Source: Deinococcales bacterium (GTDB lineage: Bacteria > Deinococcota > Deinococci > Deinococcales > JAAFIG01). Taken from it: a stretch of DNA of 64,000 bases. Each line of letters starts with the position of its first letter. Position 1 is the stretch's first letter. A model generated the notes under the pieces. That model saw only the letters and a program-made list of their open reading frames with translations. It was not told the DNA's origin and ran no database searches. Shown one piece after another: positions 1-64,000 of this stretch. The position numbers and the translations under genes were made by a program. The stretch spans positions 1 to 64,000 of the forward strand of contig JAAFIG010000022.1 of the NCBI GenBank assembly GCA_013298595.1, in the 5' to 3' direction.

Positions 1-550
1 GGTTTTTGAGGAAATCAACGACTTCGTTTAATTCTTCTTTGGCTTCGTCGCAACCAGCTACTTCTTTAAATGTGGTGTTTGGTTTCTCAACTTGTTTCGC
101 TCGAGATTTCCCAAAACTCATCGCGCCACTTGTACCACCACGCATTCCTCGGATGGTGAACCACAAGAACACCCCTAAAATCAGCAGGGGAATCAAGCTC
201 GAGAGAATCGCAAACCAACTAAAACCACCCATTTCACGCACACTGACATCGGGTACACCTTGTGCGACTAAGTAACTTGGTTTTGCCCAATTATCCTCGG
301 TGGTGGTGGTGGTACGGTATTTGGTTGCGACTGGTTTGGTGTCTTTGAGGCTAAACTCGAGTTCAACAACCTGAGCACTTTGTCGTCCGATGGTCACACT
401 GGTGACTTTGCCTGCTCGTACCGCTTGGGCAAATTCAAATAAGGCTTTTTCATTTGAAGCTGTTCCAGATCGCAAGTTGACGCTGACAATCAGCACTAAA
501 GCAATTGCTAATAGCATTGCCATCCAGATATTGATGATTGGACGCTTCAT
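1..550 (-). CDS. ftsH: ATP-dependent zinc metalloprotease FtsH, N-terminal part (runs off window)
   Basis: The minus strand reads open from an ATG at 550 to the window edge, giving about 183 residues of the FtsH N-terminus. FtsH is a membrane-anchored AAA+ protease that degrades misfolded or regulatory membrane and cytosolic proteins. Visible parts are a first transmembrane helix (about residues 9-24), an extracytoplasmic domain (about 25-120), a second helix (about 128-150), then the cytosolic linker and the start of the AAA module with the family-typical TFKEVAGCDEAKEEL stretch leading to VDFLKN. Walker A and the HEXXH zinc site lie beyond the window. A TATGCT hexamer sits 8 nt before the ATG, a possible leaderless -10. 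The C-terminal two thirds are not seen. Confidence 0.93.
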   Translation of the reverse strand, partial: MKRPIINIWMAMLLAIALVLIVSVNLRSGTASNEKALFEFAQAVRAGKVTSVTIGRQSAQVVELEFSLKDTKPVATKYRTTTTTEDNWAKPSYLVAQGVPDVSVREMGGFSWFAILSSLIPLLILGVFLWFTIRGMRGGTSGAMSFGKSRAKQVEKPNTTFKEVAGCDEAKEELNEVVDFLKN

Positions 551-624
551 AGTCAATTAGCATACTGCTACAACTGCCAAACAATGTGTGATGTTTGACT
601 CAAGATCACTTCAGGAAGCATTGC

Positions 625-1908
625 TTATCTTTGATACACACGTTCTCCACCAACCCATGTCTCGAGTACGGTTTCTTCTCGAGCCAAAGTAAATAAGGCG
701 GCTAGGCTGGCTTCTGTGCTTGGGCTGCGAGCTAGTGTCGCCTCGAGCGTACTGCCTTGAAGAGCTTTTAACACAACAAAATCGGCTTGTTTACCAGTTG
801 CAAAACTGCCAACAACATCCCCTAACTCGAGAGCATCTGCGCCTGCTTGGGTGGCTAAGTACAAAAGTTGCGTAGGTGTTAAACGCATTTCTTGGCGAAG
901 CATTTGCATTTGGTACGCCTCGAGTCCTTCTTTAAGGATACTAAAACCTGTACCACCACCAACATCTGACCCAAGGGCAACTCGGACATTGTGCTCGAGA
1001 TGGGTTTTTAATGGAAATAAGCCACTACCAATAAAAGCGTTACTGCTGGCGCAATGTGCCACACTCGAGCCAGCTTTTGCCATACGCCTAAGTTCGGAGA
1101 TGCTAGGGTGAACACTATGGGCAAAAATACTTTGTCTTCGCACCAAGTTATGGCGTTCGTATGCTTCGAGATAATCGGTGGCACCAGCAAGTTTTTTAAC
1201 CACGTCTATTTCGCTGGGGTTTTCGTTGATGTGGGTGTGGAATAACACACCCTTTTTCATCTCGAGCAATGTTTGGCAAACTGCCAGCATGTCATCCGAG
1301 CAAGACAAAGCAAAACGTGGCATGACAGCGTAACGTAAACGCCCTATACCATGCCAACACTCGAGTAAACGCTGCCCCGCAGTCAAGGCAGCTTGGGGTT
1401 CTTGGTGCAATTTAGGGCGTAGTTCACGGTCTGATAACACCATGCCGCTCGAGATTCGCAAACCGCTTTGGTGGGCTTCATCAAAAAAAGCGTGCATAGC
1501 AGCTTCAAAATGTGCCCCAAAGACTAAAGCTGTGGTTGTGCCATTTTGTGCCAGTAAGCGCAAAAAATCCTTGGCTAATTCCCGAGCTAATGTCGCATCC
1601 TCGAGTGATTCTTCAAAAGGTAGCGTTCGGGTTTCTAACCACTCGAGCAGTTGTAAACCCATTGCGCCAATCACCGAAACTTGTGGGAAATGCACATGGC
1701 AATCTATAAACCCAGGCAAAATAAAGGCATTTTTGTACTCGAGTCGGGTTGCGTTAGGGAATTGTGGACTCAGTTGACTGTACAAACCAACTGCTAAAAT
1801 ACCAGTGTCATCAAAGACCAGTGCGCCATCAGTAAATGCCTCGAGTGCCTCTGCAACTTGAAAAGCATGATGTGGTGTATGGAGAACCATTCCCCGAATA
1901 AGCTTCAT
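625..1908 (-). CDS. guaD: Guanine deaminase (amidohydrolase family)
   Basis: Predicted 427-aa cytosolic Zn-dependent amidohydrolase that deaminates guanine to xanthine in purine salvage or catabolism. The metal-binding HxH is at about residues 71-73 in FIDCHVHFPQ. Further expected signatures are PRFALSCS, HTHINEN (third His), the HS motif in IFAHSVH, and LGSDVGGGTGFS carrying the catalytic Asp. Length and motif order match bacterial GuaD better than cytosine deaminase or chlorohydrolases. The hexamer TAGACT (1915-1920, minus) ends exactly 6 nt before the ATG, so the mRNA is probably leaderless. The gene carries about 15 CTCGAG copies, one of the densest runs here. It is monocistronic between ftsH and the divergent livK. 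Confidence 0.88.
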   Translation of the reverse strand: MKLIRGMVLHTPHHAFQVAEALEAFTDGALVFDDTGILAVGLYSQLSPQFPNATRLEYKNAFILPGFIDCHVHFPQVSVIGAMGLQLLEWLETRTLPFEESLEDATLARELAKDFLRLLAQNGTTTALVFGAHFEAAMHAFFDEAHQSGLRISSGMVLSDRELRPKLHQEPQAALTAGQRLLECWHGIGRLRYAVMPRFALSCSDDMLAVCQTLLEMKKGVLFHTHINENPSEIDVVKKLAGATDYLEAYERHNLVRRQSIFAHSVHPSISELRRMAKAGSSVAHCASSNAFIGSGLFPLKTHLEHNVRVALGSDVGGGTGFSILKEGLEAYQMQMLRQEMRLTPTQLLYLATQAGADALELGDVVGSFATGKQADFVVLKALQGSTLEATLARSPSTEASLAALFTLAREETVLETWVGGERVYQR

Positions 1909-1978
1909 ATCTCGAGTCTACCGCACCCAGCAAATGTAGCGTTGCACCGAATTGAGTACAGTTTTTCTGGACAAGAGA

Positions 1979-2007
1979 TTGACAGCAGCCGCTTGCTTCC
2001 GTAGAAT
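1979..2007 (+). promoter_or_regulatory. Sigma70-type promoter for the liv operon
   Basis: A consensus -35 TTGACA (1979-1984) is followed after 17 bp by TAGAAT (2002-2007). It lies about 80 bp before livK, leaving a leader of roughly 75 nt with an AGGAGG-type ribosome binding site at about 2076-2082. This classical architecture contrasts with the leaderless starts of many other genes here. Confidence 0.65.
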
Positions 2008-2087
2008 CCCCAAGAATTACTTAACGGAACAAACGCTTGTCTGGCAAAAATGACACCAAGCCATAACCGTTATTATAGGAGGATGGG

Positions 2088-3257
2088 ATGAAGAAACGTT
2101 ACTTAGGTTTAGCAGTATTGGCAGCACTCGCAATGGGTGCAGAAGCGCAAAACAAAGGCGTTATTAAAATCGCCTCTCAAACACCACTTAGCGGTGGTCA
2201 ATCGAAACTCGGCGTTGCCATCAGCAATGGTGTACGTCAGGCAATTGATGATGAAGGAAAACTCATCACTTCCCTTGGCTACAAACTCGAATATGCTCCA
2301 TTTGACGACCAAGCAAAATCCGAACAAGGTGTCGCTAATGCAAACCGTATGATTAACGACAACGATATTCTCGGTGTTGTTGGTCACTTGAACAGCGGTG
2401 TAGCAATTCCTTCCAGCGAAGTGTATGCTCGTGTTGGCTTAGCGATGGTGTCACCAGCCAATACCAACCCACTTGTTACAGATCGTAAATCCACTGTCAA
2501 TGTTGCCAGCCGTATTTGCGGACGTGACGACGTACAAGGACCAGCAGGCGCTGATTTTATTGTACAAACCCTCAAAGCCAAAAAGATTTACGTCATCAAT
2601 GACAAAACAGCTTACGGCGAAGGTTTAGCTGCTGCGTTTGATGCGCGTGCCAAAGCCCTTGGAGCAACCACCACACCAATTGGTATTGAAGCTTCTGAAC
2701 GTGACTTCGCCAGTGTTCTTAACCGTGCTGCTGCCGAAAAACCAGACGTTGTTTACTACGCAGGTATCTACGACCAAGGTGGTCCTTTGCTCAAGCAAAT
2801 GCGCGCTAAAGGTCTGAAACAACCATTCGTTGGTGGCGACGGTTTAGACGGTTCCGACTTACAAGCCCTTGGTGGACCAGAAAACATGAAAAATGTTTAC
2901 TTCACCACCACCGCAGTACCACTCTCGAGCTTACCAGCCGCAAAGAGCTTTGCAGAGCGTTACAACAAGAAATTTGATGTCACAGCCGAAGGTTACGCAG
3001 CTTATGGTTACGATTCTGCTCGTGTTATCATCCGTGCAATCTCGAGTGCTGCCCGTAAAGGCAAACCAAGCCGTGAAGCAGTAGCTGCTGCTGTTCGTCA
3101 AGTGAAATTCCAAGGTATTACTGGTCCAATTTCGTTCAACAATCGTGGCGATTTGCCAGTTGCCAAATACGTCATTGTTTCAGCTCAAGCAGATTACAAC
3201 GATAACAAAGTCAATAAGATTGTTACTGTTGCTGCACCAACACCAGACCTGAAGTAA
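2088..3257 (+). CDS. livK: Branched-chain amino acid ABC transporter substrate-binding protein
   Basis: A 389-aa secreted binding protein of the LivK/BraC type 1 periplasmic-binding fold. It begins with a signal peptide (MKK start, hydrophobic core to about residue 18, AEA cleavage site near 19-21). The mature part starts with the family-typical IKIASQTPLSGGQS, followed by a receptor-family ligand-binding region. It captures Leu/Ile/Val-like amino acids and delivers them to LivHMGF encoded directly downstream. A strong AGGAGG sequence precedes the ATG. The gene has only two CTCGAG copies in 1.17 kb and a regular codon pattern, as expected for a highly expressed gene. A hairpin terminator follows it. 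Confidence 0.92.
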   Translation: MKKRYLGLAVLAALAMGAEAQNKGVIKIASQTPLSGGQSKLGVAISNGVRQAIDDEGKLITSLGYKLEYAPFDDQAKSEQGVANANRMINDNDILGVVGHLNSGVAIPSSEVYARVGLAMVSPANTNPLVTDRKSTVNVASRICGRDDVQGPAGADFIVQTLKAKKIYVINDKTAYGEGLAAAFDARAKALGATTTPIGIEASERDFASVLNRAAAEKPDVVYYAGIYDQGGPLLKQMRAKGLKQPFVGGDGLDGSDLQALGGPENMKNVYFTTTAVPLSSLPAAKSFAERYNKKFDVTAEGYAAYGYDSARVIIRAISSAARKGKPSREAVAAAVRQVKFQGITGPISFNNRGDLPVAKYVIVSAQADYNDNKVNKIVTVAAPTPDLK

Positions 3258-3275
3258 ATCTAAGTCACTCACAAT

Positions 3276-3299
3276 AAAGGACGGGGAAACCCGTCCTTT
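3276..3299 (+). terminator. Intercistronic terminator/attenuator between livK and livH
   Basis: A 10-bp perfect stem AAAGGACGGG / CCCGTCCTTT closes a GAAA loop, followed by a weak U-containing tail. Its position between the binding protein gene and the permease gene fits partial termination, so that livK is expressed above the membrane components. Confidence 0.75.
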
Positions 3300-3324
3300 C
3301 GTCGTTTTAGAATCCAAGAGGTTA

Positions 3325-4296: not shown

Positions 4297-5576
4297 AACA
4301 CACAGCTTCCCTTCCTGATCGCAGTATGTTACTGATCGCTTCAACCATTATTAGTGGCATTATTGCTTATGTGATGATCTTACAAAAGAATAATATCGAA
4401 AGTTATTTTGTCACCCCCGTTGTTATGTTCTTTTGCTTTAACTTGTATTTTGCAAGTGCTTGGAATGTTTCTCGAGTAGCTAAAATTGTGGCTTTTGTTG
4501 GTGTGCTATTCATTGGTATTCCAATGATTGGTTTTACTAATTCTTTGTACTTACAAGTTGCAGTGACCATTTGTATTTTCGCAGCAATGTCACTTGGTTT
4601 AAATGTGGTGGTTGGTTTTGCAGGTCTGCTTGACCTTGGTTACGCAGCTTTTTTTGCTGTTGGTGCGTACCTTTGGGCAATTTTTGGTGGTACTCAAGCC
4701 AACGAATTTATTGCAGGAAACCTCTTTCCGCTTAATGGTAATTTAGTATTTATTTTTATTCCAATTGCCTTATTTGTTGCTGCGGGTGTTGGTGCATTGC
4801 TCGGTTTACCTGTACTCAAAGTTAAAGGCGATTACCTTGCTATTATTACCCTAGGACTTGGCGAAGTGATTCGCGTGCTAGCAAATAACCTGAATAAACC
4901 AATTAACATCACCAACGGTTCACAAGGTGTTCGTATCGCCCCAAACCCAGAAACAAGTCCGTTGGCATTTATTACCGTGCCGCTTTCTGAGGCTACAGGC
5001 ATCCCATTTTTTCAAATGCAATTAACCATGTATTACGTATTGGTGTTGTTAGTCGTACTGGCTGTTGTTATTTTCACCAGTCGTTTAGATAACTCGAGAA
5101 TCGGACGGGCTTGGGTGGCTATGCGTGAAGATGAAGTCGCAGCTCAGGCTATGGGCATTCCTTTGGTTCGTACTAAACTTATTGCTTTTGCCACTGGTGC
5201 TAGTTTTGCTGGTGCCATGGGTGTTTTATATGCGGCTGTGATTGGTTTTATCAACCCAAACGATTTCAACTTTGAACGTAGTACACAAATTCTTGCCATG
5301 GTTGTCCTTGGTGGGCTTGGCAGTATTCCGGGTGTCATTTTTGGAGCTGCTATTGTTGTCAGCCTGAATCAATTAGTGTTAGTCGAAATTAGTCGTGTGA
5401 TTGGCTTGTTAAACTTACCGCCTCGTTTTGACCCAACCCAATATCAACAACTTATTTATGGCGTTATCCTCATTTCTATGATGATTGTGCGCCCTAAAGG
5501 GCTGATACCGGCGAAACGCAACCCTGCGAAACTCGAGAATCTCGAGCATGGCGAGTTAGCAAAAGGGGTGAAATAA
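4293..5576 (+). CDS. livM: Branched-chain amino acid ABC transporter permease LivM
   Basis: A 427-aa membrane permease, longer than LivH because of extra N-terminal hydrophobic segments. Signatures include VVGFAGLLDLGYAAFFAVGAY, shown here in part, then LKVKGDYLAIITLGLGE and the EAA-like loop SRIGRAWVAMREDEVAAQAMGI, all characteristic of LivM. It pairs with LivH in the membrane. It overlaps livH by 4 bp at the start and livG by 1 bp (TAATG) at the end, so the genes are tightly coupled. The C-terminal LENLEHGELAKGVK tail carries two nearby CTCGAG sites. Confidence 0.93.
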   Translation: MKHTASLPDRSMLLIASTIISGIIAYVMILQKNNIESYFVTPVVMFFCFNLYFASAWNVSRVAKIVAFVGVLFIGIPMIGFTNSLYLQVAVTICIFAAMSLGLNVVVGFAGLLDLGYAAFFAVGAYLWAIFGGTQANEFIAGNLFPLNGNLVFIFIPIALFVAAGVGALLGLPVLKVKGDYLAIITLGLGEVIRVLANNLNKPINITNGSQGVRIAPNPETSPLAFITVPLSEATGIPFFQMQLTMYYVLVLLVVLAVVIFTSRLDNSRIGRAWVAMREDEVAAQAMGIPLVRTKLIAFATGASFAGAMGVLYAAVIGFINPNDFNFERSTQILAMVVLGGLGSIPGVIFGAAIVVSLNQLVLVEISRVIGLLNLPPRFDPTQYQQLIYGVILISMMIVRPKGLIPAKRNPAKLENLEHGELAKGVK

Positions 5577-7098: not shown

Positions 7099-7107
7099 CC
7101 TATTCCG

Positions 7108-7134: not shown

Positions 7135-7135
7135 T

Positions 7136-7561: not shown

Positions 7562-7602
7562 CAATTCCTATTCTACGCGTTCAAACGGACTCAGATTCAA
7601 GG

Positions 7603-22107: not shown

Positions 22108-23040
22108 TTAATACCCTCGAGTTCGATCTACCACATGCTCGAGTGGTTGCCCTGAGCGTAAACGCAAAACATTTGTTGCCACCACTTTGGCTGCTGTGAT
22201 TGGATTGGTGGCGGCTGCCACATGCGGCAAGACTGTGATTTGAGGATGATGCCAGAACAGATGATCTGTTGGTAATGGTTCGGTGGTAAAGACATCGAGA
22301 ATCGCATGTTGCAAATGCCCAGAATCAAGAGCTGCAAGCAAATCCGCTTCGATGATATGTGCTCCTCGAGCCAGATTGATGATACTCGAGCCAACAGGTA
22401 AGTAACTCAGTGTTTGTGCATTGAGAATCCCTCGAGTTTCGTCGGTAAGTGGTAATAAATTGACCAGAATTTCGCTTTGCTCGAGCATGGTTTGTAAGCC
22501 ATCCTGACCAGAAAAAGTCTGTATACCCTCGAGATTTGTTGGGCGTGAACTCCACCCGAGTACAACAAAACCCAATTGCTTGAGTTGCACAGCAGCAACC
22601 CGTCCGAGATGCCCTAAACCCAGCACAGCAACTTTTCGTTCAGCAGCGCTGGGTTGCGGTAATTGCTGCCAAACCTTGGCTTGTTGCTGCGCCTGATAAG
22701 CTGGAATTTGCCGATGCAAACTTAGCACATGGGTTAAAACCGTCTCGAGCATGGCTTGGGTGAGAGCAGGGTCTACCAATCGTGCTAAAGGAATGTCTCG
22801 AGGGAGCGTCGCATCGCGCAGTAACGCATCCACTCCTGCCCATAAGGACTGAATCAATTTTAGATTTGGCAGTGTTGCCAGCACACCCGCAGGCGGGTTT
22901 GCCACCAATGCCACATCAATATCAGCTAAATTTGGCAAATCAGGATACACACAAAACTGCTCGGCGGGTAAAGCTTGCTCGAGTAATGGCAACCACATTT
23001 GTACTTCGTTACTGGTAAAATTCGTTAAGAGCAAAATCAC
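22108..23040 (-). CDS. D-isomer specific 2-hydroxyacid dehydrogenase, GhrA-like
   Basis: 310 aa from a GTG at 23040 that immediately follows the recR stop. NAD(P) Rossmann motif VAVLGLGHLGRVAAVQL; catalytic Arg in NLARGAHI, Glu in FTTEPLP and His in LPHVAAAT. The N-terminal LIQSLWAGVDALL is typical of glyoxylate/hydroxypyruvate reductase A. It reduces glyoxylate or hydroxypyruvate. A start further upstream at 23145 would overlap recR by about 90 bp and adds residues unlike the family. CTCGAG is very dense (about 11 in 950 bp). Cotranscribed with recR. Confidence 0.85.
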   Translation of the reverse strand: MILLLTNFTSNEVQMWLPLLEQALPAEQFCVYPDLPNLADIDVALVANPPAGVLATLPNLKLIQSLWAGVDALLRDATLPRDIPLARLVDPALTQAMLETVLTHVLSLHRQIPAYQAQQQAKVWQQLPQPSAAERKVAVLGLGHLGRVAAVQLKQLGFVVLGWSSRPTNLEGIQTFSGQDGLQTMLEQSEILVNLLPLTDETRGILNAQTLSYLPVGSSIINLARGAHIIEADLLAALDSGHLQHAILDVFTTEPLPTDHLFWHHPQITVLPHVAAATNPITAAKVVATNVLRLRSGQPLEHVVDRTRGY

Positions 23041-23053
23041 GTAAACCTCGAGA

Positions 23054-26836: not shown

Positions 26837-27103
26837 ATGAAGGCAACAAAAGATAGTCCCTCTGCAATAGCCATTCATAATCGCTTACCTGTCCTACGAG
26901 CCGAACGCAACCTGTCACGCCAAGAACTCGCCGATGCTGTCGGCATCAACTTTCAAACCATTGGCTATCTCGAGCGCGGAGATTACAACCCAAGTTTAGA
27001 GTTGGCTTTTAAGTTATCAGAATTTTTTGGCTTACCCATCGAAGCGATTTTCTCGAGAACACCGTTTAAGCCCTTGTCAGAAACACTCTATAACAAAGGA
27101 TGA
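26837..27103 (+). CDS. XRE-family helix-turn-helix regulator
   Basis: 88 aa, starting MKATKDSPSAIAIHNRLPVL. A single HTH_3 domain: RAERNLSRQELADAVGINFQ, TIGYLERGDYNPSLELAFKL and SEFFGLPIEAIF. This short class is usually paired with small membrane proteins, as here. A longer frame starting at 26789 would include the promoter and is rejected. The downstream gene overlaps by 4 bp (ATGA), so the regulator and the two membrane proteins form one operon. Confidence 0.88.
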   Translation: MKATKDSPSAIAIHNRLPVLRAERNLSRQELADAVGINFQTIGYLERGDYNPSLELAFKLSEFFGLPIEAIFSRTPFKPLSETLYNKG

Positions 27104-47443: not shown

Positions 47444-48496
47444 TTATTGGCAAATTGGAACAATTTTACGATCCACACCTTCGCATAAAACTTCTTTAGA
47501 AATCCATTTGGCATCTATTACCACTTTTAAATTGCTACGTGTGATCGGTACTGGTTTAATAAAAATAGAATTCATTCGCACTTTTTTGGGTCCTTTACTA
47601 AAAATAGCACGACCTGCAATTTTATCCATTGTCACACCTTTAGCCAATTGCAATGCCACCTGAGCTGCTTTTGTACCAAGGGTACGCGCATCTTTCCAAA
47701 CTGAAACAGTTTGCGTCCCTCGAGCCACTCGGTTCAGCGCAGCTAAGTCACCATCTTGTCCTGAAACTGCAACTCTACCAGCTAATTTCACAGCAGCTAA
47801 TGCAGCAACAGCACCACCTGCCATACCATCGTTGCTGGCAACGACAGCATCTACTTTGTTTGCATTACGAGTCAGAAATTGCTCCATGATGCGTTGAGCA
47901 TTTTCGGGTTTCCAACTTTCAGTAAATTGCTCACCTACAACTTTGATATCACCACGTTTAATAGCAGGATTTAACACCTCGAGTTGACCATTATGTAAAA
48001 ACACACTATTGGGATCGCCTGGATCACCTTTAATGAACACATAATTGCCCTTAGGTTTTACCTTGAAAACTTCTCGAGCTTGCATCCTACCAACTTCGAC
48101 ATTATCAAAAGTCATATAAAAAACACTGGGTTCTTCGATTAAACGATCATACGCAATCACAGGTATTTTGGCTTTTTTAGCTTTAGCAATAGCTGGTAAA
48201 ATGGCATCTTTATCCATTGCTAAAATAATTATGGCTTTTACCCCTCGAGAAATTAAATTATCAATATCATTTAATTGTTTTTCACTCGAGGCTTGTGCAT
48301 CAGTGCTTGTCATGTCAGCATTACCAAAAGCAAACACTTGTCCCATTGCAGATTCATCGGTACGCCAACGTTCTTCTTGGAAATTACTCCAACTGACCCC
48401 AATAATTATTTTACTTTGTTGTGCTTGCCCAATGACTAAGCTCGAGCAGGTCGCAAGTACTGTGATGCCAAGAATCGTTTTCCAGTACTTCATCAT
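47444..48496 (-). CDS. XylF-like sugar ABC substrate-binding protein, second copy
   Basis: 350 aa from the ATG after AAAGGAGTGAA. Signal peptide [20 protein letters not shown]. Ligand-binding domain of the XylF group: [76 protein letters not shown]. It is strongly similar throughout to the XylF at 50737 and is probably a diverged duplicate binding a related pentose. A terminator separates it from xylG, so it may have its own promoter. A frame starting at 48628 is rejected. Confidence 0.85.
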
Positions 48497-48599
48497 TTCA
48501 CTCCTTTTGACATCTGCCAATACATCAGAACTTTGTGTGCTGATACATATCGCCATAAAAAACTTGCGATAATTTCGATAACCCAAGTATGGCAAAAAA

Positions 48600-48647
48600 A
48601 TTGTCAATGCAGTGTAAAAATCAGACATTTACCATTGCACTGACAAT
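48600..48647 (-). terminator. Intrinsic terminator after xylG
   Basis: On the minus strand ATTGTCAGTGCA pairs with TGCATTGACAAT (one mismatch), with an inner GTAAA / TTTAC stem, followed by a run of seven T (48594-48600). It lies about 10 bp after the xylG stop and ends the xylFHG transcript. Confidence 0.75.
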
Positions 48648-48657
48648 AGTTATACTT

Positions 48658-49410
48658 TTATGTTGCATTGGGGACATTAGGCATGACACCACCGATAATC
48701 ATGCCAAGCACTTGGTCATGGTTGACATCTTTGGTGTTGACTGTACCAACCACTTTGCCGTTCTTCATGACGGTACAACGGTCAGCTAAGTCAAAAACAT
48801 CGTGTAAATCGTGACTAATTAAAAAAATGCCTACACCTTCAGCTTTGAGGGCAGCTATTAATTCAGATACTTTAGCAGTTTCTTCTGGTCCTAAGGCGGC
48901 TGTAGGTTCATCCATAATCAGCACTTTGGCTTTGAAATACACTGCCCTTGCAATTGCCACGGTTTGTCGTTGACCACCGCTCATATTTTGCACAGGTACG
49001 CGTAAACTCGGGATTTTGACTCGTAATCTGTCTAGTACTTTACGAGCTTCGATTTCCATTTCGTCTTCGGATAAAACAATGCCATTGACTTTTTCGCGCC
49101 CAAGAAAAACATTTGCCACAGCATCCAAATTATCTGCTAAAGCCAGTGTTTGATAAATGGTTTCGACACCGTGGCGCTGAGAATCCTGAGGGCTACGAAT
49201 TTCGACTTCTTGTCCAGCAATTTTAATGCTGCCAGAATCGGCTTGGTACGCTCCAGAAAGCACTTTGATCAGTGTGCTTTTGCCAGCACCATTATGCCCA
49301 AGTAAACCCACCACTTCGCCTGGTCGTAGATTCACCGAAACATCATCCAGTGCTTGGTTACCACCGAAACGCAAGGAAATATTGTTCATTTCGATAATTG
49401 GAGTAGTCAT
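48658..49410 (-). CDS. xylG: Half-size sugar ABC transporter ATP-binding protein (xylose type)
   Basis: 250 aa, one ATPase module, whereas classical XylG has two in about 500 aa. Walker [13 protein letters not shown], signature [14 protein letters not shown], Walker [13 protein letters not shown], and [19 protein letters not shown] with the H-loop; the text is typical of Xyl/Rbs-type ATPases. It presumably works as a homodimer. It has no CTCGAG at all in 753 bp, unlike its neighbours. Its ATG overlaps the xylH stop by 1 bp (TAATG). Confidence 0.88.
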
Positions 49411-50648
49411 TAACGACCTCCTTTACGACGATTACTAATCGAATTCCACAGCACAGCCAGCAGCAACACAATGCCTAAATAAATTTTTTGTTGCTCGGTT
49501 CGTACACCCACCAAACCAAGTCCGTTCTCGAGGCTACTCATCAGTAGTGCTCCAAGGGCAGCGCCAAGAATTGTGCCACTACCGCCCGATAGAACTGTCC
49601 CACCAATTACTGCTCCTGCAATAACTGTCAGCTCGAGATCACGTCCTAAGGTTGGTGTGGCGCTGTTTAAACGTGCGGCTTGCACTGCGCCTGCAATAGC
49701 AGTTAAAAACCCCATCAGCATGAAAATGTAAACCATCATGCGTTTAACGTTAATACCAGCGAGGTTTGCCGCTTCTGGGTTACCACCAATAGCAAAAATG
49801 TAACGCCCAAAGCGTGTGGCTCGAGTCATCCAATTTAAGTAACCAAGTACAGCCAGTGCAATTAAGGTTGGTACGGGCATACCACTGGCAACAGCTGGAA
49901 TGTTGTCCACACCTGTTCCAGGGACGTTGTAACTGTTCATGACGATCACAAATGCCAGAATCAGCACTGTGGTCACACCAAGTACTAAAGCTTCTGCCCA
50001 AACGGGTCGAACTGAAAATTCGTTTCGTTGCCGTCTGACCCGTCCAGTGAGGGTTTGCCAAACAACAAAAGCAATAATTGCCAGCCCAATAATCCATGTC
50101 CAAGTGGCACCAATTGAACCGTTAATACCACCACCCAGAATTTGAAAGGTTTCGTCGAGTGGTCCAATGGTAAAACTCGAGACACTAAATGTGCCGTTGC
50201 GAAATACCAGCATTCCTGCCAATGTGACCACAAAGGCGGGTACGCCCCAAAACGCAGATAAGTACCCGTTAAAAGCACCAATCAGTACGCCAACAGCAAT
50301 ACCAATCAGCACTGCTAGAATCCAGTTTAAGCCTGCACCTATTGGTGGTGGGGCTTGTAACAACGCCATAATCATGGCAGTAAAACCCAGCACACTACCA
50401 ACACCAAGGTCTATTTGTCTGGCAACAATCACCAGCACCATACCACCAACCATGATGCCAACCACTGCGGTTTGTGCGGTTAAAGTCCAAAGGTTACGTG
50501 GTGATAAAAAAATGCCACCACTCCAAATTTGAAAACCAATCCAAACGACCACCAAAGCCAACAGCAACGTTAAGAGTTGATTATCTACTCCTAAGGCTGC
50601 CAGTAACGAGCGTCGCTCGGGTGGGCGATTTTTTTCTGCGTTCTGCAT
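49410..50648 (-). CDS. xylH: Sugar ABC transporter permease (xylose type)
   Basis: 412 aa. Ten or so hydrophobic segments of the BPD_transp_2 family: [20 protein letters not shown] at the start, [20 protein letters not shown] with the cytosolic loop, and [20 protein letters not shown]. It forms the sugar channel with XylG and XylF. It follows xylF after an 88-bp spacer containing a strong hairpin. Carries about five CTCGAG sites. Confidence 0.9.
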
Positions 50649-55729: not shown

Positions 55730-58700
55730 TTATGACCGATCCGAAGAACGGCGCTTAGGTGGTGGCGGTAACTCGAGTTCTTCGCCAAGTAAATAGGGTT
55801 TACCCGCTGCTTTAGCGTTATACATACGATTATCGGCAAGAGATTGCAACTGATCTAAGTTGCTGGCTTCGTTTGGGTATGAAGCCAAACCAATATTTAA
55901 CAAAATTTTGATATCACCATCAAATTCCATTTGTTCAATAGCACCCACAATGTACATCAGCAACTCAAGGGCTGCTTGTTCGGGCGGGATAATCAAAGCA
56001 AATTCATCACCACCTGTTCGGTAAGCTTTATGACTGGCACGACCAAGTTGATTGGGTCCACTGGCAAGCACTTTTGCCACTCGAGCCAGAACAACATCGC
56101 CAGCCGCATGTCCGAATTGATCGTTGACTAACTTAAAACCTGTTAAATCTATGGCTGCTAAACCAAAGTTTTGATATTGCTCAAGGCTGCGTTGCAAATC
56201 TTCATCAAAAGCTCGACGGTTACGTAAATTGGTTAGTGGGTCAAACCGCGCAGCTCGTTCGGCTTGGAATCGTAAGAATTCCATCTCGCTGGCTTTACGC
56301 TCGAGTTGTTCGTGTAGTAAAACATTTTCTAAAGCTGTGCTGATTGGATTACTCAGGCTGACAATCATGGCTAAATCTGATTTGGTTAATGGTTGCTCGA
56401 GTGTAGATTCAATATTTAATGTACCTAAAACCCCAACTGAACCTTTTAACGGCACAGCAATCAACGAAACCAAGTCGGGCGAAGCCACAATAAAATCGGG
56501 ATCTTTTCTGCCATCAGTAATCAGTTCGGGTGTACCTGAACGGGCAACTCGACCAATCACACCATTGGCTAATGGCACTTCAAAATACGGTGTGGGAATA
56601 CCAAGTTGCCCTTGTAAACGCAAGGTTTGCCCCTCAAGTAAATACAAACTACTATGCTGAAAACCAAGGGCATCTTCTAAAACATGAAGCACTGCTCGCA
56701 CTAAGTCTGGTAAGCTCCGCAAACGCGCAACTTCTTGACTGATACGCGTTCGCACCCGTTCATCACGCAAACTAGCCCGTTCTCGGACATATAATCGTGC
56801 ATTCTCGAGGGCGATACTGGCAAGGGCAGCAAAGCGTTCTAAAGTTTCTAAATCGTAAGAATCAAACCGTGCAACAATAGCGGTGTCGGCGAGGGTTAAA
56901 GCACCAATCACATTTTTACCTTGGCGTAAAGGCACACTGGCGACACTGCGCCACGGCGAAACAATATCGGCTGCTCGCAATTCCCAAATCTGATAATCTT
57001 CGATCAGAAGCAGTTCACCAAGTTCTGCCACCTGTCCAGACACACCTGTACCCAAAGCAAAACGCGTTTCAGGAAAGTCTCCGATACCCGCAGCTAAAAC
57101 AATTTCTTGATGCTCGATTAAAAACACACCACCAGCATTAGCACCCAGCAACGCCGAGGCGCGTTCCAAAATACTCGAGAGTAAAGCTTCGGGTTCTAAA
57201 TTCTTACTAACCTCTAAAGACACTTGGTATAACGCCTCGAGTTGCCTGGCTCGAGCTAACGCTTTACCTTCTGCGTGACGAGCATCGTCGAGCAACTGAG
57301 CGCGTTCCAAAGCAATACTGGCACTGGCAGCAAATCGCTCGAGGGTATCTAAATCGCTATCCGCAAAACGGTATGTATTTTGGGTATCGGCAATCACTAA
57401 AGCCCCTGTGATTTCTTTGCCACGCTTTAACGGTACCGATAACACAGATTGCCAAACACTTGCACCACGACGACCCGCTTGAGTCCAATTTTGATAATCA
57501 TCAATTCGTAATGCCTGACCTGTCAAAGCTGTGACACCACTGGCACCATATCCTAAAGGCATAATAGGACTGGCACTAGCCCCAATTGTGGCAGCTAAAT
57601 GCAATTCCTCGAGTTCAGATTGCAACAAATACAACCGCCCAGCATGTGCTCCAAAAAGCATCACTGCTCGCTCGAGAATACTCTCTAAAAGCATATCTAA
57701 TTCGATGTAATGCCCAAGTTCTAAATTAATTTCATGTAAAGCTTCCATCAGTGCAGTGCGTTCCTGAGCACTCTGCTCGGCAACTCGCAAGGAATCAAAC
57801 AACCGCGTGGTCTCGAGAGCAGCACTGGTTGCTGCGGCAAAACGTTCTAAAGCTTCAAGATCATTAGCATCAAACCGATTGGTGGCTCGAGTATCAGCAA
57901 TGGTTAAAGCACCAATCACTTGATCTCCACGCCATAACGGTGCGCTCATAGCAGCTTGCCATGAGACAATTTCGTTATCACGAATATCTTGCCCATCCCA
58001 GTTTTTGTAATCCTGCACCACTCGAGCTTGTTGTTGCACAATCACTTTGCCCGATAAACCTTCACCTAAAGTACCAGAAACACTCGGACTTTCCCCATGC
58101 ACTGCAACCCGTTCAAACAAATTGCCACTGACCAGATAGACCGCGCCAGCATCGGCAGAAAACAAGGCTGTGACTCGATCAACCACTTGTTGCAACATTG
58201 CACTTGGTTCAAACTGCCCAGCCAATGCCAAACTGGTCTGGTACAACGCCTCGAGCAAACGTGTCTGACGCTGATTATGCAAACTGGTCTGCTCGGCTTT
58301 TTCCAGTAAGGCAGCATTCTCGAGGGTCACATTGGCAACTGCTGCAAAACGCTCGAGACCCACTAAATCTTCGGGTTGAAAACACATTGGATTTGTGGTG
58401 TGTGCCAATGTTAAAGCACCAATCACTTTGCCGTCCAAATGCAATGGCACAGATAAGGCAGCTTGCCAAAGTGGTGAAATTTCGTTAGCGGGTTTTCCAT
58501 CCCACGCTTGATACTGATTCATTAATAACGGTAAACCCGCAGCAATAACCCGCCCCGATAAACCATGATCTAAAGTAATGATTTGTTGAACATTGGGGTC
58601 AGTCAAATCGGTCGAAGCTCGAATTGTTCCATCAGCTTGCAACATATACACCGAACCAGCATTGGCTCCAAGTAAATTCGCTGCTCGTTCCAACAAAGAA

Positions 58701-60340
58701 CGCAACAACTGCTGACTAGGAACATGCCGAGTCACAGCTAAACTTGCCTGATGTAGTGCCTGCAATTGATTGGCTTGCACTCGAGCACGTTGTTCAGCTT
58801 GGCGTGCCGCATCGAGTAACAAAACATTTTCTAAAGATAAACTAGCAATAGCCGCAAACCGCTCGAGCACAGCGACATCTGCAACTGTAAAACGCTCTGG
58901 GAAACGCGTATCAACAATGGTTAAAGCACCTAGTACATGCTGTTGCCAACGAAGTGGCACACTTATTACTGCTCGCCAATCCACACCTGGGTCGTTGCCA
59001 TTATAAAAATCAGAGAATTCATGGTTGCCAAGTAAAATTGGCTCGCCATTTTGCGCCACCCGACCCGAAACCCCGTACCCCAATGGTGCTCGAGGTACAA
59101 GTTCATCGCCATAATCGGCAAGTAAGCGAATTTCATCAGCTTCACGCAAGTAAATACCACCAACGTTCGCGCTAAACAAAGCCACCACCCGTTGCAATAA
59201 ATCGTGCGCTACAGCCTGCACATCTTGTGTATTACCCACTTCGACTTGGGTTTTATACAAAGCCTCGAGCAAACCAGCCCGATGCTCGGCTTCAGAACGT
59301 GCCGCTCGAGCTTCAACATACAACCGAGCATTCTCGAGTAAACCCGCAACAATCGGAGCTATTTGTAAAACAAAATCAACATCTTCGTTATCAAACTCTA
59401 AGCCATGATGACGCTCAAAAAACACCACACCAATTCGGATATCGCCATGTAACAAAGGCACAGCAATCAAACCCTGCAAACCAGCATCCACATATCCAGA
59501 GATAGCCAAAGGATGTTCAGGATAGTAATTGAGTAACAATGGGGTGCTATGCAAAGTTGCTTGCAATAACACCTCATGACCAGAATGCAGCAAACCCACA
59601 GTTACATCATCAGCATCCACAACCAACTCGAGTCGCTTAGAACCGTCACGCAACAAAACCAAACCACCAACAGCTTCAAGCATCACCCCAGAACGCCGAA
59701 TTAACTCATGCAAAGCTGCAAACGGCTCGAGCGAAGCAATAATCTCAGAAAAATGCTTTTGCAATTGCTCACGGCGCACTAAACGAGATTCTGATATACG
59801 CTGTTGTTGCTCCTGAGCTGCGCGTAAACTCGCATTTTCTAGGGCTACACTTGAAAACGCTGCAAACCGCTCGAGCAACAACAACTGCTCTGATTGGTAC
59901 GCCGCAACTTGTTCATCCCAAATCGCCATCAAAACCCCAAAAACACGTCCGCCACGACGCAAGGGGGTCGCAATCATCGAACGTTGCAAACCAGCATACC
60001 GAGCACTCCGCAACGCCGACGCTTGATAATCATCAATCAATACCGACTCGCCATGCCCAAAAACCCAACCGCAGACCCCTTCATCAGGCGCAAATCGCTG
60101 TCCCACTCGAGTAATTAACTGCCCAACGCCATGACGCATCTCGAGGCTACCGTCGGGCAAACCAACATACACGGCCGCCGAAGTGCCACCACAAAAACGC
60201 AGCACCCCCTCAAGCAACCGCACAAATAGCTCTGCATCATTTTCCTGAGCACCAAGTGTCAATGTCAATTGATGCAGCAACTCAAGCGCCTCGAGGCTCG
60301 AGTTATTTTGCCACCGCACCACCGAAGACGACACAGACAT
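55730..60340 (-). CDS. Diguanylate cyclase with eight tandem GAF domains
   Basis: 1536 aa, no transmembrane helix, so cytosolic. Eight GAF domains repeat with a period of about 170 residues (roughly 20-175, 200-345, 360-520, 540-695, 710-865, 885-1040, 1060-1215, 1225-1370), each ending in text like IGALTIADT...RF...DL..LERFAA..S.ALENA. The C-terminal GGDEF domain (about 1385-1525) has FDPLTNLRNRRAFDEDL, DLTGFKLVNDQFGHAAGDVV and an intact RTGGDEFAL, so it should make c-di-GMP; no RxxD inhibitory site is obvious. A very large sensory array; ligands unknown. Confidence 0.93.
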   Translation of the reverse strand: MSVSSSVVRWQNNSSLEALELLHQLTLTLGAQENDAELFVRLLEGVLRFCGGTSAAVYVGLPDGSLEMRHGVGQLITRVGQRFAPDEGVCGWVFGHGESVLIDDYQASALRSARYAGLQRSMIATPLRRGGRVFGVLMAIWDEQVAAYQSEQLLLLERFAAFSSVALENASLRAAQEQQQRISESRLVRREQLQKHFSEIIASLEPFAALHELIRRSGVMLEAVGGLVLLRDGSKRLELVVDADDVTVGLLHSGHEVLLQATLHSTPLLLNYYPEHPLAISGYVDAGLQGLIAVPLLHGDIRIGVVFFERHHGLEFDNEDVDFVLQIAPIVAGLLENARLYVEARAARSEAEHRAGLLEALYKTQVEVGNTQDVQAVAHDLLQRVVALFSANVGGIYLREADEIRLLADYGDELVPRAPLGYGVSGRVAQNGEPILLGNHEFSDFYNGNDPGVDWRAVISVPLRWQQHVLGALTIVDTRFPERFTVADVAVLERFAAIASLSLENVLLLDAARQAEQRARVQANQLQALHQASLAVTRHVPSQQLLRSLLERAANLLGANAGSVYMLQADGTIRASTDLTDPNVQQIITLDHGLSGRVIAAGLPLLMNQYQAWDGKPANEISPLWQAALSVPLHLDGKVIGALTLAHTTNPMCFQPEDLVGLERFAAVANVTLENAALLEKAEQTSLHNQRQTRLLEALYQTSLALAGQFEPSAMLQQVVDRVTALFSADAGAVYLVSGNLFERVAVHGESPSVSGTLGEGLSGKVIVQQQARVVQDYKNWDGQDIRDNEIVSWQAAMSAPLWRGDQVIGALTIADTRATNRFDANDLEALERFAAATSAALETTRLFDSLRVAEQSAQERTALMEALHEINLELGHYIELDMLLESILERAVMLFGAHAGRLYLLQSELEELHLAATIGASASPIMPLGYGASGVTALTGQALRIDDYQNWTQAGRRGASVWQSVLSVPLKRGKEITGALVIADTQNTYRFADSDLDTLERFAASASIALERAQLLDDARHAEGKALARARQLEALYQVSLEVSKNLEPEALLSSILERASALLGANAGGVFLIEHQEIVLAAGIGDFPETRFALGTGVSGQVAELGELLLIEDYQIWELRAADIVSPWRSVASVPLRQGKNVIGALTLADTAIVARFDSYDLETLERFAALASIALENARLYVRERASLRDERVRTRISQEVARLRSLPDLVRAVLHVLEDALGFQHSSLYLLEGQTLRLQGQLGIPTPYFEVPLANGVIGRVARSGTPELITDGRKDPDFIVASPDLVSLIAVPLKGSVGVLGTLNIESTLEQPLTKSDLAMIVSLSNPISTALENVLLHEQLERKASEMEFLRFQAERAARFDPLTNLRNRRAFDEDLQRSLEQYQNFGLAAIDLTGFKLVNDQFGHAAGDVVLARVAKVLASGPNQLGRASHKAYRTGGDEFALIIPPEQAALELLMYIVGAIEQMEFDGDIKILLNIGLASYPNEASNLDQLQSLADNRMYNAKAAGKPYLLGEELELPPPPKRRSSDRS

Positions 60341-60407
60341 GAACAGTTATCATGTTATCAAACTCTGACCTGTTCTAAGCAAAAAAACGCACACATCCAA
60401 AAAACCA

Positions 60408-60788
60408 TCAATAACGCTTCAAATAAGCAGGACTAGCCACTTGTAATTTTGCAACAGCCACCTCAGACAAGACAGTGAGTGTACCCACTGGTACAATTCC
60501 CAAACGAATCTGACTGGCTAATTGCGAATTCAAATCCAACACCACAGCATCCAAACTGGCTCGAGAATCCCAATTTGGCACAGCCACCCCAAGCAAAACC
60601 GCTAAATGTTCAGCCTCGAGTTGTAACAAACCCTCCTCGAGTGGTGCTCGCCCCAGCATCGAAAGAGCATTCATTGCCACCAACAAACGAAATTTCAACC
60701 GAGCATCTGCCACCACAGGCATGATTTCAGACTCGAGAAATTCTCGCACCGCAACAGCGAGTTCGGCATTATCAGGACGAGGCTGCAT
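60408..60788 (-). CDS. DUF6285 domain protein
   Basis: 126 aa. Matches DUF6285: PDNAELAVAVREFLESEIMP, RLKFRLLVAMNALSMLGRA and LGVAVPNWDSR. The family commonly sits next to acyl-CoA-type phosphotransferase genes, as here (54 bp downstream of the APH gene, same strand). Function unknown. TAAACT ends 6 nt before the ATG, suggesting independent leaderless expression. Confidence 0.78.
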   Translation of the reverse strand: MQPRPDNAELAVAVREFLESEIMPVVADARLKFRLLVAMNALSMLGRAPLEEGLLQLEAEHLAVLLGVAVPNWDSRASLDAVVLDLNSQLASQIRLGIVPVGTLTVLSEVAVAKLQVASPAYLKRY

Positions 60789-60842
60789 GGAAGTAGTTTA
60801 ACGTAAAGGCAGAGGAAAAAGGAAAAACAAAGTAGCTCGAGA

Positions 60843-61832
60843 TTAGAATTCTTTTTGCAATAAATGCAGTAACTCGAATTCCATCTCGGCACTTAAACGC
60901 CCCAGCACAGCCAATTCCACACTACGCTCGAGCTTATCGAGGTGGCGTTTAGCTTGGGTTAACGCCGCCACAGCCCATTTAACATTGCCTAGTACCTCCC
61001 AAAAATGCAGGGTCTCGAGGGTGATATTTTGTTTTGTTAACAAATTGTAATGCGCTAAGTACGGCTCGAGGTTAGCAACACCACCAAGATGCAAATGATC
61101 GTTACCAAAACGCCACGCCCGAATTAACGTCCAGGCTAAATCCTCGGCAGGATCGCCAATATGGGCGAACTCCCAATCCAGCACCGCCACCAAATCGGTT
61201 TCAGAAATCATCAGATTGCCAATGCGAAAATCCCCATGCACCAAGACCTTGCCATGCGACGGTGGCAAATGCGTTTTCAACCAATGCAACGCCAATTCAA
61301 TGGTTGGATGCGGCTCAACAACAGAATCTAATTCCGCGTACAAACGCAAAATACTATGCTCCGCTCCAGACAAATCACTGCGCGGCAAAAAACCAAGTAT
61401 TCCCAAATCCACCGCATGAATCCGTGCCAATTGCTCTGCCATTCGCAACGGCAAGACTTCTCGAGCCACCGCAAACTCAGGCTTAGATACCACCCGCCGC
61501 CCCACCGCCTCACCACGAACTCGAGCCGACACAAACGCCTCACGCCCCAACGAATCCGCCACATACAACACAGGCTCAGGCACCAACACCCCCGCTGCAA
61601 ACACCGACTCGAGAACCCGAAATTCCTGCTCAAGACTGAGTTGCTCGAGATTCATCGCCCCACCACCCGCCCGACGCACAATCAACTCACGCAGCACCCC
61701 AGCTTGCTCGAGATTCAAAAACCAAGCTTCTTTACTGGCACCACCCGCCAACAAATGCAAATCCAAGACTTTGCTATTTGGGAACAAAGACTCGAGCAAC
61801 GCCGACAAAGCGGAATGGGTATCGGAAGGCAT
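60843..61832 (-). CDS. APH-family phosphotransferase (ACAD10/11-like)
   Basis: 329 aa. Aminoglycoside phosphotransferase/choline kinase-like fold: LAGGASKEAWFLNL (nucleotide loop), LVHGDFRIGNLM (catalytic Asp) and VAVLDWEFAHIGDPAEDLAW (metal Asp). In bacteria such proteins with DUF6285 partners act in acyl-CoA or hydroxy-acid metabolism; the substrate is unknown, and antibiotic resistance is not implied. The start is the ATG with TAAACT 5 nt upstream; a frame extending to 62249 runs through repeats and is rejected. Confidence 0.87.
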   Translation of the reverse strand: MPSDTHSALSALLESLFPNSKVLDLHLLAGGASKEAWFLNLEQAGVLRELIVRRAGGGAMNLEQLSLEQEFRVLESVFAAGVLVPEPVLYVADSLGREAFVSARVRGEAVGRRVVSKPEFAVAREVLPLRMAEQLARIHAVDLGILGFLPRSDLSGAEHSILRLYAELDSVVEPHPTIELALHWLKTHLPPSHGKVLVHGDFRIGNLMISETDLVAVLDWEFAHIGDPAEDLAWTLIRAWRFGNDHLHLGGVANLEPYLAHYNLLTKQNITLETLHFWEVLGNVKWAVAALTQAKRHLDKLERSVELAVLGRLSAEMEFELLHLLQKEF

Positions 61833-61904
61833 ACAACAGTTTAGGGGAAAAGCAAAGGAAGGATGAAGAGGATGTGAAAGAGCTTGCATGTTTTGAGTCA
61901 AGAG

Positions 61905-62030
61905 GCGACACCGTGTCGCACCAAAAACAGTATTGGCAAAACCGTACATCTCCCTTGTTACAAAAATGCTGTGACAGTTCTTCGAGAAACCATGATTAGC
62001 ACAGCAAAGCGAGGCATGCCTCGCCGCTAC
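61905..62030. repeat. Two palindromic repeats upstream of the APH gene
   Basis: GCGACAC-C-GTGTCGC (61905-61919) and the 16-bp perfect palindrome GCGAGGCATGCCTCGC (62009-62024), the latter followed by CGCTACGG. The flanks match the CGTAGGGG.../...CCCCTACG ends of the dispersed palindrome family. Confidence 0.65.
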
Positions 62031-62050
62031 GGTTAGCAACAAGCTTCTAG

Positions 62051-62917
62051 CTATTTCAATCTCGAGATGGGGTCGGTTAATGCTCCGAGGACATCCATGA
62101 CAACTTTTGGTCTGCCTAATGGGTAAAGGTGCACACCAGATACGCTGGCTTGGCGTAAATCTTGGACGATTTGTTTTGCCCACTCGAGACCAGCTTTTTT
62201 GCCGTTCTGCTCGAGGTCTTGTAGTAGTGCGGATGGTACGGTTGTCCATTTGGCAACACGCACTGCCATCTCGAGATTACGAATCGGTAGAACTCCGAAT
62301 AATACAGGAATACTGGGTTGCACAATGTCGAGGAATCGGTGCACTGTGTCGATGTCAAAGACTGGTTGGGTTTGGGCAAAATGCGCTCCAGCAGCAACTT
62401 TTGCTGCGAATCTTTCGCGCTCGAGTATCAAATCGGCTGCGCCTGGATTGGCAGCCACGGCAATACTAAAATTGGTTGGCTCGAGGTCACGCCCTGCTTT
62501 GGATTGACCATTATTTAAGCTGCGAACAATGCTGGCAAGTCCAACCGCATCCACTTCAAAAACGCCTTTGGTATCAGGGTGGTCGCCTCGTTCGGGTGGG
62601 TCGCCACGCAAACACAAAATGTTTTGCACCCCAAGCGCGGCAGCGCCTAATAATTCGGATTGCAAACCCAGAATGTTACGGTCACGGCAAGTAAAATGGG
62701 CAATCACCTCGAGTCCTGTGCGTTCTTGCACAAGTTTGGCTGCGACCAACGGACTCATTCGCAAATTGGCTTGTGGACTATCGGAAATATTGACTGCATC
62801 CACATACCCACGCACCGCTAAGGCTTCCTCGAGGGTTTTGGTGGGGTCGCTGCCTCGAGGTGGGTCGAGTTCGGCTGTGACCACAAACACCTTACCAAGT
62901 TTATCGATTAGTTTCAT
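62051..62917 (-). CDS. metF: 5,10-Methylenetetrahydrofolate reductase
   Basis: 288 aa. MetF TIM barrel with FAD: VVTAELDPPRGSDPTKTLEE, NISDSPQANLRMSPLVAAKL, HFTCRDRNILGLQSELLGA, LCLRGDPPERGDHP and HFAQTQPVFDIDTVHRFLD. It reduces methylene-THF to 5-methyl-THF, the methyl donor for methionine synthesis. Its ATG overlaps the stop of metY by 4 bp (ATGA), so the two form a coupled methionine operon. Confidence 0.92.
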   Translation of the reverse strand: MKLIDKLGKVFVVTAELDPPRGSDPTKTLEEALAVRGYVDAVNISDSPQANLRMSPLVAAKLVQERTGLEVIAHFTCRDRNILGLQSELLGAAALGVQNILCLRGDPPERGDHPDTKGVFEVDAVGLASIVRSLNNGQSKAGRDLEPTNFSIAVAANPGAADLILERERFAAKVAAGAHFAQTQPVFDIDTVHRFLDIVQPSIPVLFGVLPIRNLEMAVRVAKWTTVPSALLQDLEQNGKKAGLEWAKQIVQDLRQASVSGVHLYPLGRPKVVMDVLGALTDPISRLK

Positions 62918-64000
62918 TGGCTCACCAACGCACTTTGCAGTGCAGCCTCGAGGGCTTGACCAAAATCGGTTTGTAAATCTTGTACATCCTCGAGTCCTAC
63001 CGAAACCCGAATGGTTTCAGGAGCAACCCCTGCGGCGCGTTTACCCGCTTCGGGCAAACGCCCATGTGTGGTCGTCCACGGATGCACCACCATTGTACGC
63101 GTATCGCCGAGGTTAGCTGCATGACGCACCAATCGTAAACTGCTGATAAAAGCGCTAGCACCAGCTTGTCCACCTTTGACACCAAAGGTTAAAACGGCTG
63201 GATGATGGCGCAAATATTTTTTGGCTAAATCATGATGCTCGTGACTGGCTCGGCTCGAGTGATTGACCCAAACCACCCCAGGATGCGTCTCGAGCCACGC
63301 AGCTAAATCGGCAGCATTGCTGCATTCTTTTTGTAAACGCACCGCCACGGTTTCTAAACCAAGATTGATTTGCCAAGCACTGGCAGGTGCCAGTGTCATA
63401 CCCATTTGGTGCAAACCAATGAACCGTGCTCGAGTGATAAATGCCATTTCGCCAAGCCGAGCATTCCAACTTGTACCACTGGCATCAGGTTCGGAAAGTG
63501 TTGCACTGCTCGAGATAAATCCTTTACGAGCCAATACCGCACCACCCAGCACCGAACCATGCCCAGCTGCCCATTTGGTCAGGCTATGCACCACCACATC
63601 GGCACCAAGCTCGAGCGGACGACACAAATACCCAACTGCACCCCAAGTGTTATCGACTACCAACGCAATACCAGCGGTTTTACAAACCGCACTGATGGCA
63701 GCAAAATCCGGAATATCCCCAGCTGGATTACCAATTGTCTCGAGTAAAACAAGACGGGTATTGGTTTGAATCGCGGTTTGAATTTGCGTGGCATCGTTCG
63801 GTACCACACTCGAGGTGATACCAAAATTGGGTAGCACATTTCGTAACAAACCAAGGCTACCACCAAACAAACTACTGGTTGCCACAATATGATCGCCAGC
63901 TTTACACAAATTAATCAAAGCCAGCAAAGTCGCTGCTTGCCCAGTTGCCGTGACAACACAGCCCGCAGCGTTCTCGAGCGCTGTTAAACGCACCTCGAGT
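62914..64000 (-). CDS. metY: O-acetylhomoserine/O-acetylserine sulfhydrylase, partial (N-terminus beyond window)
   Basis: About 361 residues of a Cys/Met metabolism PLP enzyme; roughly the first 70 residues lie past the window edge. TGQAATLLALINLCKAGDHI and TSSLFGG (PLP phosphate site), DNTWGAVGYL, PLP Lys in HSLTKWAAGHG, and NLGDTRTMVVHPWTTTH with the MetY-type large insertion. It makes homocysteine from O-acetylhomoserine and sulfide, feeding the MetF branch. The visible start-like GTG at 63993 is internal, because the frame runs open to the window edge. Confidence 0.92.
   Translation of the reverse strand, partial: LEVRLTALENAAGCVVTATGQAATLLALINLCKAGDHIVATSSLFGGSLGLLRNVLPNFGITSSVVPNDATQIQTAIQTNTRLVLLETIGNPAGDIPDFAAISAVCKTAGIALVVDNTWGAVGYLCRPLELGADVVVHSLTKWAAGHGSVLGGAVLARKGFISSSATLSEPDASGTSWNARLGEMAFITRARFIGLHQMGMTLAPASAWQINLGLETVAVRLQKECSNAADLAAWLETHPGVVWVNHSSRASHEHHDLAKKYLRHHPAVLTFGVKGGQAGASAFISSLRLVRHAANLGDTRTMVVHPWTTTHGRLPEAGKRAAGVAPETIRVSVGLEDVQDLQTDFGQALEAALQSALVSQ

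Follow-up and report, generated by a model that had tools for sequence, protein, structure and literature searches.

A dense, HIP-like CTCGAG word across the genomes of uncultured Deinococcales families

Introduction

Why should one palindromic hexanucleotide, CTCGAG, recur about every 170 bases along a stretch of Deinococcales DNA, in genes and spacers alike, and what maintains it there? The function of HIP words, the nearest parallel, has been open for decades and has been debated within one phylum. A preliminary description of the sequence likened CTCGAG to the cyanobacterial word HIP1 and offered as possible roles the target of an orphan methyltransferase with XhoI-like specificity, a mark for DNA uptake or repair, and chromosome organization. 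The present study shows that CTCGAG is a HIP-class word on which a strong and uniform pressure acts at the level of the DNA, copy by copy and on the whole hexamer.

Results

The window, meaning the whole stretch analyzed (positions 1..64000, corresponding to contig C15:1-64000 of genome G000, which comprises 4.58 Mb in 68 contigs and is placed in the Deinococcales), contains 393 exact copies of CTCGAG in 64,000 nucleotides where 7–13 are expected (6.8 ± 2.5 by dinucleotide shuffles, with a largest value of 14, and 13 by base composition). This bears out the massive over-representation first estimated at 400 or more copies against about 16. Neighboring copies lie on average 163 bp apart, and the largest gap is 1,086 bp (48441–49527). 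Local counts made by eye had been correct to within one. The guanine deaminase gene on the reverse strand (625..1908; NCBIfam TIGR02967, above cut-off) carries 14 copies, about 15 having been described, and the region 57000..58000, within a reverse-strand gene for a 1,536-aa GAF/GGDEF protein (55730–60340), carries the 8 described. The dense cluster in a 2-hydroxyacid dehydrogenase-like gene (22108..23050, reverse strand; Pfam PF02826), given as 11, holds 10 whole copies and one across its edge. Five further copies lie in the intergenic spacer 60341..60842, delimited from the open reading frame list, and the word is therefore not tied to coding. The two copies at 5532..5546 form one of only six pairs in the window at 16 bp or less, and such pairs are depleted genome-wide.

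The view that the DNA word, present in all three frames, on both strands and in spacers, is what is enriched also holds. Coding copies in the window divide into 219 read as CTC GAG, 74 as nCT CGA Gnn, and 64 as nnC TCG AGn, and the density is 6.07 per kb in coding and 6.76 per kb in noncoding DNA. Outside the word CTC accounts for 7.5% of Leu codons and GAG for 19% of those for Glu, so both are otherwise uncommon, as described. Genome-wide, G000 has 27,159 copies of CTCGAG, or one per 169 bp over 4.58 Mb, against 15 of the reversed word GAGCTC. Other statistics draw on samples of G000 (about 494 kb) and of a second genome, G003 (408 kb). The Markov comparison proposed in the preliminary description, carried out at second order with the word masked, gave 2,838 copies found against 38 expected in the 494 kb of G000, a 74-fold excess; the excess in G003 is 53-fold, and the next palindrome in the test of these two genomes stands at less than 2-fold. 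One short palindrome is thus far above Markov expectation, in coding and noncoding DNA and in any frame. As a separate observation, GGCC is nearly missing from the samples of G000 and G003 (L334–L373; observed/expected 0.01 and 0.03), CCGG is reduced (0.14 and 0.32), and a large number of six-base palindromes are close to absent, a pattern shared with organisms that have many restriction systems; GAGCTC is itself down to its 15 copies per 4.58 Mb in G000.

A codon model, in which the codon usage of each genome, with the codons of the word left out, is applied to the positions where the peptide permits the word, shows that the pressure is not one of codon usage. In G000 the fractions of permitted positions filled in frames 0, 1, and 2 are.66,.64, and.37, against.017,.043, and.017 by the model, and the pattern is much the same in G003, G002, WN_Deinococcales_2, and G012. 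Spacers contain 6.1 copies per kb (277 found, 5.9 expected). Relative to its alternatives, the word has odds increased by a factor of roughly 30 to 110, in each of the three coding frames and in spacers, and this like shift within and outside genes argues for a DNA-level pressure of uniform strength. The pressure has filled 37–66% of permitted coding positions and has altered protein sequences: the Leu-Glu dipeptide stands at 2.25 times expectation in G000 and at 2.1–2.5 in the other well-sampled carriers of the dense word and in G008, against 1.0–1.2 in genomes without the word and about 1.5 in the mild Meiothermus group, while Glu-Leu in G000 is at 1.0. A DNA word is therefore able to bend a whole proteome, here by a 2.3-fold Leu-Glu excess, a point of importance for phylogenetic work and for protein models whose training data include such genomes.

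The word extends well beyond one assembly or contig. A scan of species genomes for three close CTCGAG copies in an A+T-rich context returned several contigs from each of five "Deinococcales bacterium" records, at 5–9 copies per kb. In a survey of 111 genomes from the phylum, each of the four members of family f1 has 26,000–28,000 copies, and genus g11 of family f2 has 6.2–7.7 copies per kb, so that the three f1 genomes other than G000 and two of g11 together span 6–7.7 per kb; G008 has 3.6 per kb, genus g13 1.4–3 per kb, and G004 0.3 per kb. Thermus has about 0.8 per kb, with the reversed control just as common. G006 may correspond to Marinithermus hydrothermalis and G025 to Meiothermus ruber, in which case f5 would be Thermaceae, g7 Thermus, and g13 Meiothermus. 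The f1 and g11 genomes exceed the codon model 10- to 50-fold (for G016, from 5 kb), G008 5-fold, and G059 and G025 of the Meiothermus group 3- to 4-fold; the ratio is 1.3 in G019 and 0.5 in G004 and Thermus. The trait is thus clade-wide in uncultured Deinococcales families, mild in Meiothermus, and absent from Thermus. Because f1 and f2 are sister clades in an RpoB tree, it was either ancestral to both and then lost in G004, or gained twice. This grading, from absent in Thermus through mild in cultured Meiothermus to extreme in uncultured families, allows tests of cause and function.

Several observations accompany the survey. The word is at 0.5-fold codon expectation in the sister-family genome G004 (L084, L415–L417), as if restricted or lost. 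Four further Deinococcales genomes, G068 (g13), G061 (g23), G104 (g29), and G110 (g9), have 1.6–3.1 copies per kb with GAGCTC 6- to 47-fold fewer, a gradation from which the rise of the word could be dated. Natrialbaceae contigs (L100, L105, L123, L130, L135, L140, L147, L152, L158, and L207), a sample selected by the dense-word scan, have 4.7 copies per kb and Leu-Glu at 1.7-fold over expectation; their excess is mostly Leu-Glu codon usage, yet frames 1 and 2 are 5- to 11-fold over the codon model, and there may be a mild HIP in this family. Viral carriers were sought in two dense-word scans of viral contigs, and among the matches listed, mostly G+C-rich contigs and one A+T-richer (L255, 2.3 per kb), none was at carrier level.

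Comparison of orthologs indicates that individual copies persist. Between G000 and G003 or G002, identity at 4-fold codons is 0.37–0.40, close to saturation. Nonetheless, in a comparison of aligned sites of the kind that the preliminary description had proposed, Leu-Glu positions filled in G000 are still filled in G003 in 89% of cases, against 63% where G000 is unfilled (91 shared positions, a small sample, at a 4-fold codon identity of 0.39), and the corresponding contrast in frame 2, also from a small sample, is.85 versus.24. Copies of the word are thus maintained between orthologs near synonymous saturation. Acquired DNA, another comparison that had been suggested, differs from the rest: an island of MBOAT/AlgX-like genes for exopolysaccharide (alginate-)acetylation (L339; G000:C12:1-20000), which was probably acquired more recently, has 2.9 copies per kb, half the usual density, and single transporter-like genes have 0–1 copy. 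The lower number in recently acquired DNA suggests that the word accumulates with residence time.

Copies of the word also interfere with one another over a short range. When fill states were shuffled among same-frame permitted positions inside each gene (genome-wide shuffles were also run), three independent genome sets gave ratios to the within-gene shuffles of 0.36, 0.30, and 0.55 for filled pairs at 6–14 bp (z = −8.0, −10.0, and −4.5) and of 0.70, 0.75, and 0.81 for those at 15–29 bp; past 60–90 bp the ratio is 1.0. Copies therefore exclude each other at distances under about 30 bp, and those more than about 60–90 bp apart are independent, a physical handle in that any explanation must act at about 15–30 bp. 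Close pairs do exist in spacers, chiefly in terminator-like stems. Avoidance of hairpins was considered as the cause of the exclusion and rejected: generic G+C-matched inverted hexamers are at 0.97 and 0.75 at 9–14 bp, with no loss past about 20 bp. Next to the word, a purine is preferred at −1 and G is avoided at −3. These preferences are symmetric and recur in every frame, in spacers, and in two genomes, the −1 base being A-rich in G000 and G-rich in G003. Beyond −4 the flanks are close to background composition, unlike those of a dispersed repeat of the REP or MITE kind.

Discussion

The reading that we favor, at a probability of roughly 0.4, is that CTCGAG copies are docking sites of a predicted abundant, dimeric DNA-binding protein. 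Each copy would dock a putative symmetric, probably homodimeric, sequence-specific protein, in the simplest case one that belongs to the nucleoid and serves to coat or fold the chromosome. The gain from any one occupied copy would be slight and independent of the others, with little to be had from a second copy inside the footprint of the protein. The graded, symmetric readout of the flanks is as expected of a dimeric DNA-binding protein, although an enzyme could give the same. If the shift in odds reflects selection, the scaled coefficient would be about 3.5–4.7 per site, such that single sites matter little and yet all 27,000 are maintained. Among the roles initially listed, chromosome organization fits best. 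A tentative extension is a chromosome-wide, sequence-specific code for packaging or marking, in which a word every 170 bp would be read by a putative abundant protein with a footprint of about 15–30 bp and its upkeep would rewrite Leu-Glu content. On the other side, the 2- to 3-fold excess of words one transition away from CTCGAG exceeds the prediction of a simple two-state equilibrium, which counts against docking sites, and no nucleoid protein known to us requires hexamer sites in numbers near 27,000 per chromosome. Moreover, selection and a mutational or conversion bias of the same odds would give the same equilibrium frequencies, which cannot separate the two.

The alternative that survives best, although we consider it rather unlikely, is an origin linked to methylation, in which an orphan methyltransferase modifies CTCGAG and mismatch repair directed by methylation, or protection of the modified site from mutation, creates and preserves the word. 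Such an origin was proposed by Elhai for the cyanobacterial HIPs, every one of which is matched by a methyltransferase (PMC4390886). Methyltransferases of several families are numerous in the carriers, and flank preferences and short-range exclusion would be expected from a methyltransferase too. Among PF00145, PF01555, PF07669, and PF02086, however, the distribution is patchy, and no ortholog group is common to G000–G003 and G012, in genomes 91–94% complete; the orphan XhoI-like methyltransferase initially envisaged thus finds no support within these four families, and an unseen or lineage-specific methyltransferase, for instance of the type I HsdM, MT-A70, or an unknown family, may act on CTCGAG. 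One candidate, a 376-aa C5-cytosine methyltransferase with no obvious restriction partner (L056:4899-6035; G000:C15:67964, 4 kb past the window), was rejected in that its orthologs (59–74% identical) occur in G001 and G012 only and not in G002 or G003. Elsewhere in G000 (contig C34, L015:1399-3242), a PF01555 methyltransferase gene is followed by one for a NotI-like endonuclease, an apparent type II restriction-modification pair.

The enzymes associated with XhoI fare no better as an explanation. The endonuclease itself (PF04555) was found in none of the carriers, and XhoI restriction-modification was rejected as the source of the word on that ground; its genes are confined to G018, G042, and G048, apart from a broken copy in Truepera. 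Restriction lowers the count of its own word, and, as this leads one to expect, the three XhoI-bearing genomes have 0.7–1.0 CTCGAG per kb against 1.7–2.0 in congeners without XhoI. The putative partner methyltransferases of XhoI in G018 (PF01555 class) and Truepera (Eco57I class), whose genes adjoin those of XhoI, belong to two unrelated families, and neither was found in f1 or g11 when used as a probe, except in G002, where one protein is 27% identical. Relatives of the Truepera enzyme (51–52% identical) do occur in the mild-excess Meiothermus genomes G025, G037, and G015, in favor of a link with methylation, but G059 and G057 of the same group are enriched without it, and presence of the enzyme and enrichment therefore do not track. 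Most Thermus and g16 genomes likewise carry 62–66% identical relatives of the G018 enzyme and are not enriched. The preference of G003 for G at −1 would make a GC dinucleotide, as the published GmeC model requires; there is nevertheless no GC in CTCGAG, and G000 favors A at −1, so that this model is not transferable. It also saturates near 1 copy per kb, against the 6 per kb found, with no spacing effect past 90 bp.

We regard as unlikely a functionless mutational or conversion drive, in which CTCGAG is written, or shielded from mutation, by some activity of repair or recombination. The similar shift of odds in all frames and spacers, independent of gene function, and the bending of protein sequence are in its favor. 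An active converter of near-misses should, however, deplete words one change away, and these are not depleted: in coding DNA and spacers of two genomes, the transition one-offs TTCGAG, CCCGAG, and CTTGAG are enriched 1.5- to 3-fold and transversion one-offs are mostly at about 1 or lower, which points to decay of maintained sites rather than to active conversion. Nor is short-range exclusion between copies expected of a process without an occupant. Decay of methylcytosine, considered as the source of the one-offs, was rejected, since T-to-C one-offs are as frequent as C-to-T, with no C-to-T excess and no sign of 5-methylcytosine decay combined with very-short-patch-type repair.

A word for uptake or self-recognition, propagated by molecular drive where transformation is biased toward it, in the manner of USS and DUS, is more doubtful still. 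The lower density in acquired DNA and the paired copies in terminator-like hairpins speak for it. Both an uptake signal and a repair mark, two of the roles first suggested, imply a saturating effect across distances from hundreds of bases to kilobases, so that a second copy within that distance should be disfavored; the independence of copies past 60–90 bp speaks against any function with saturation on such a scale, including mismatch-repair strand marking and fragment uptake. Finally, ordinary codon usage, composition, or an assembly artifact has practically no chance of accounting for the word: although part of the excess in G+C-rich genomes, the Marinithermus-like G006 and Natrialbaceae, is Leu-Glu codon usage (2.5- to 2.7-fold over the codon model), the carriers exceed their own codon models 10- to 50-fold, in all frames and spacers and in six independent genomes, and the masked Markov model and codon-model test refute it.

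Docking sites for a predicted dimeric protein remain our preferred reading. USS and DUS of Pasteurellaceae and Neisseriaceae are longer, asymmetric words present at about 1 copy per kb. CTCGAG resembles them in its thousands of copies, in the pairing of copies in terminator-like hairpins, and in its lower density in acquired DNA, the last two being features reported for USS (PMC7811141). It differs from an asymmetric uptake word of 9–12 bp in being a palindromic 6-mer with weak, symmetric flank preferences, at about 6 per kb rather than about 1, and with no spacing effect on the scale of fragments. With XhoI/PaeR7I-type restriction-modification it shares the hexamer itself, the XhoI endonuclease being missing from carriers.

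The closest likeness is to the cyanobacterial HIPs, which comprise HIP1 (GCGATCGC) and the alternates GGCGCC, rCCGGy, and GCsGC (Elhai 2015, PMC4390886). Like them, CTCGAG is a short, G+C-containing palindrome that is grossly over-represented genome-wide and has close lineages without it. It is not HIP1 proper, of which G000, a member of the Deinococcales and not a cyanobacterium, has 4 copies and no enrichment; separately, in some Trueperaceae-like genomes GCGATCGC outnumbers its reversed control 20- to 40-fold (about 770 copies in G020 and G056, and 396 in G026). The literature searched, with most subscription journals outside reach, held no report of CTCGAG as a HIP. The two cases differ in phylum and in word. 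CTCGAG lacks a GC dinucleotide, and with it the G adjoining a methylated C on which GmeC-directed repair would depend, and no shared methyltransferase was found in the four families tested. Distortion of Leu-Glu content and exclusion within 30 bp are seen for CTCGAG and, subscription literature apart, neither was found for HIPs in PMC4390886. As the preliminary description had held, HIP1 is the less dense, at 300–2,700 copies per Mb (PMC4390886) against 5,900 for CTCGAG, more than twice the top count reported. CTCGAG is therefore a real, extreme, and clade-wide HIP-like word outside the cyanobacteria, and it provides in the Deinococcota an independent and denser case of this class.
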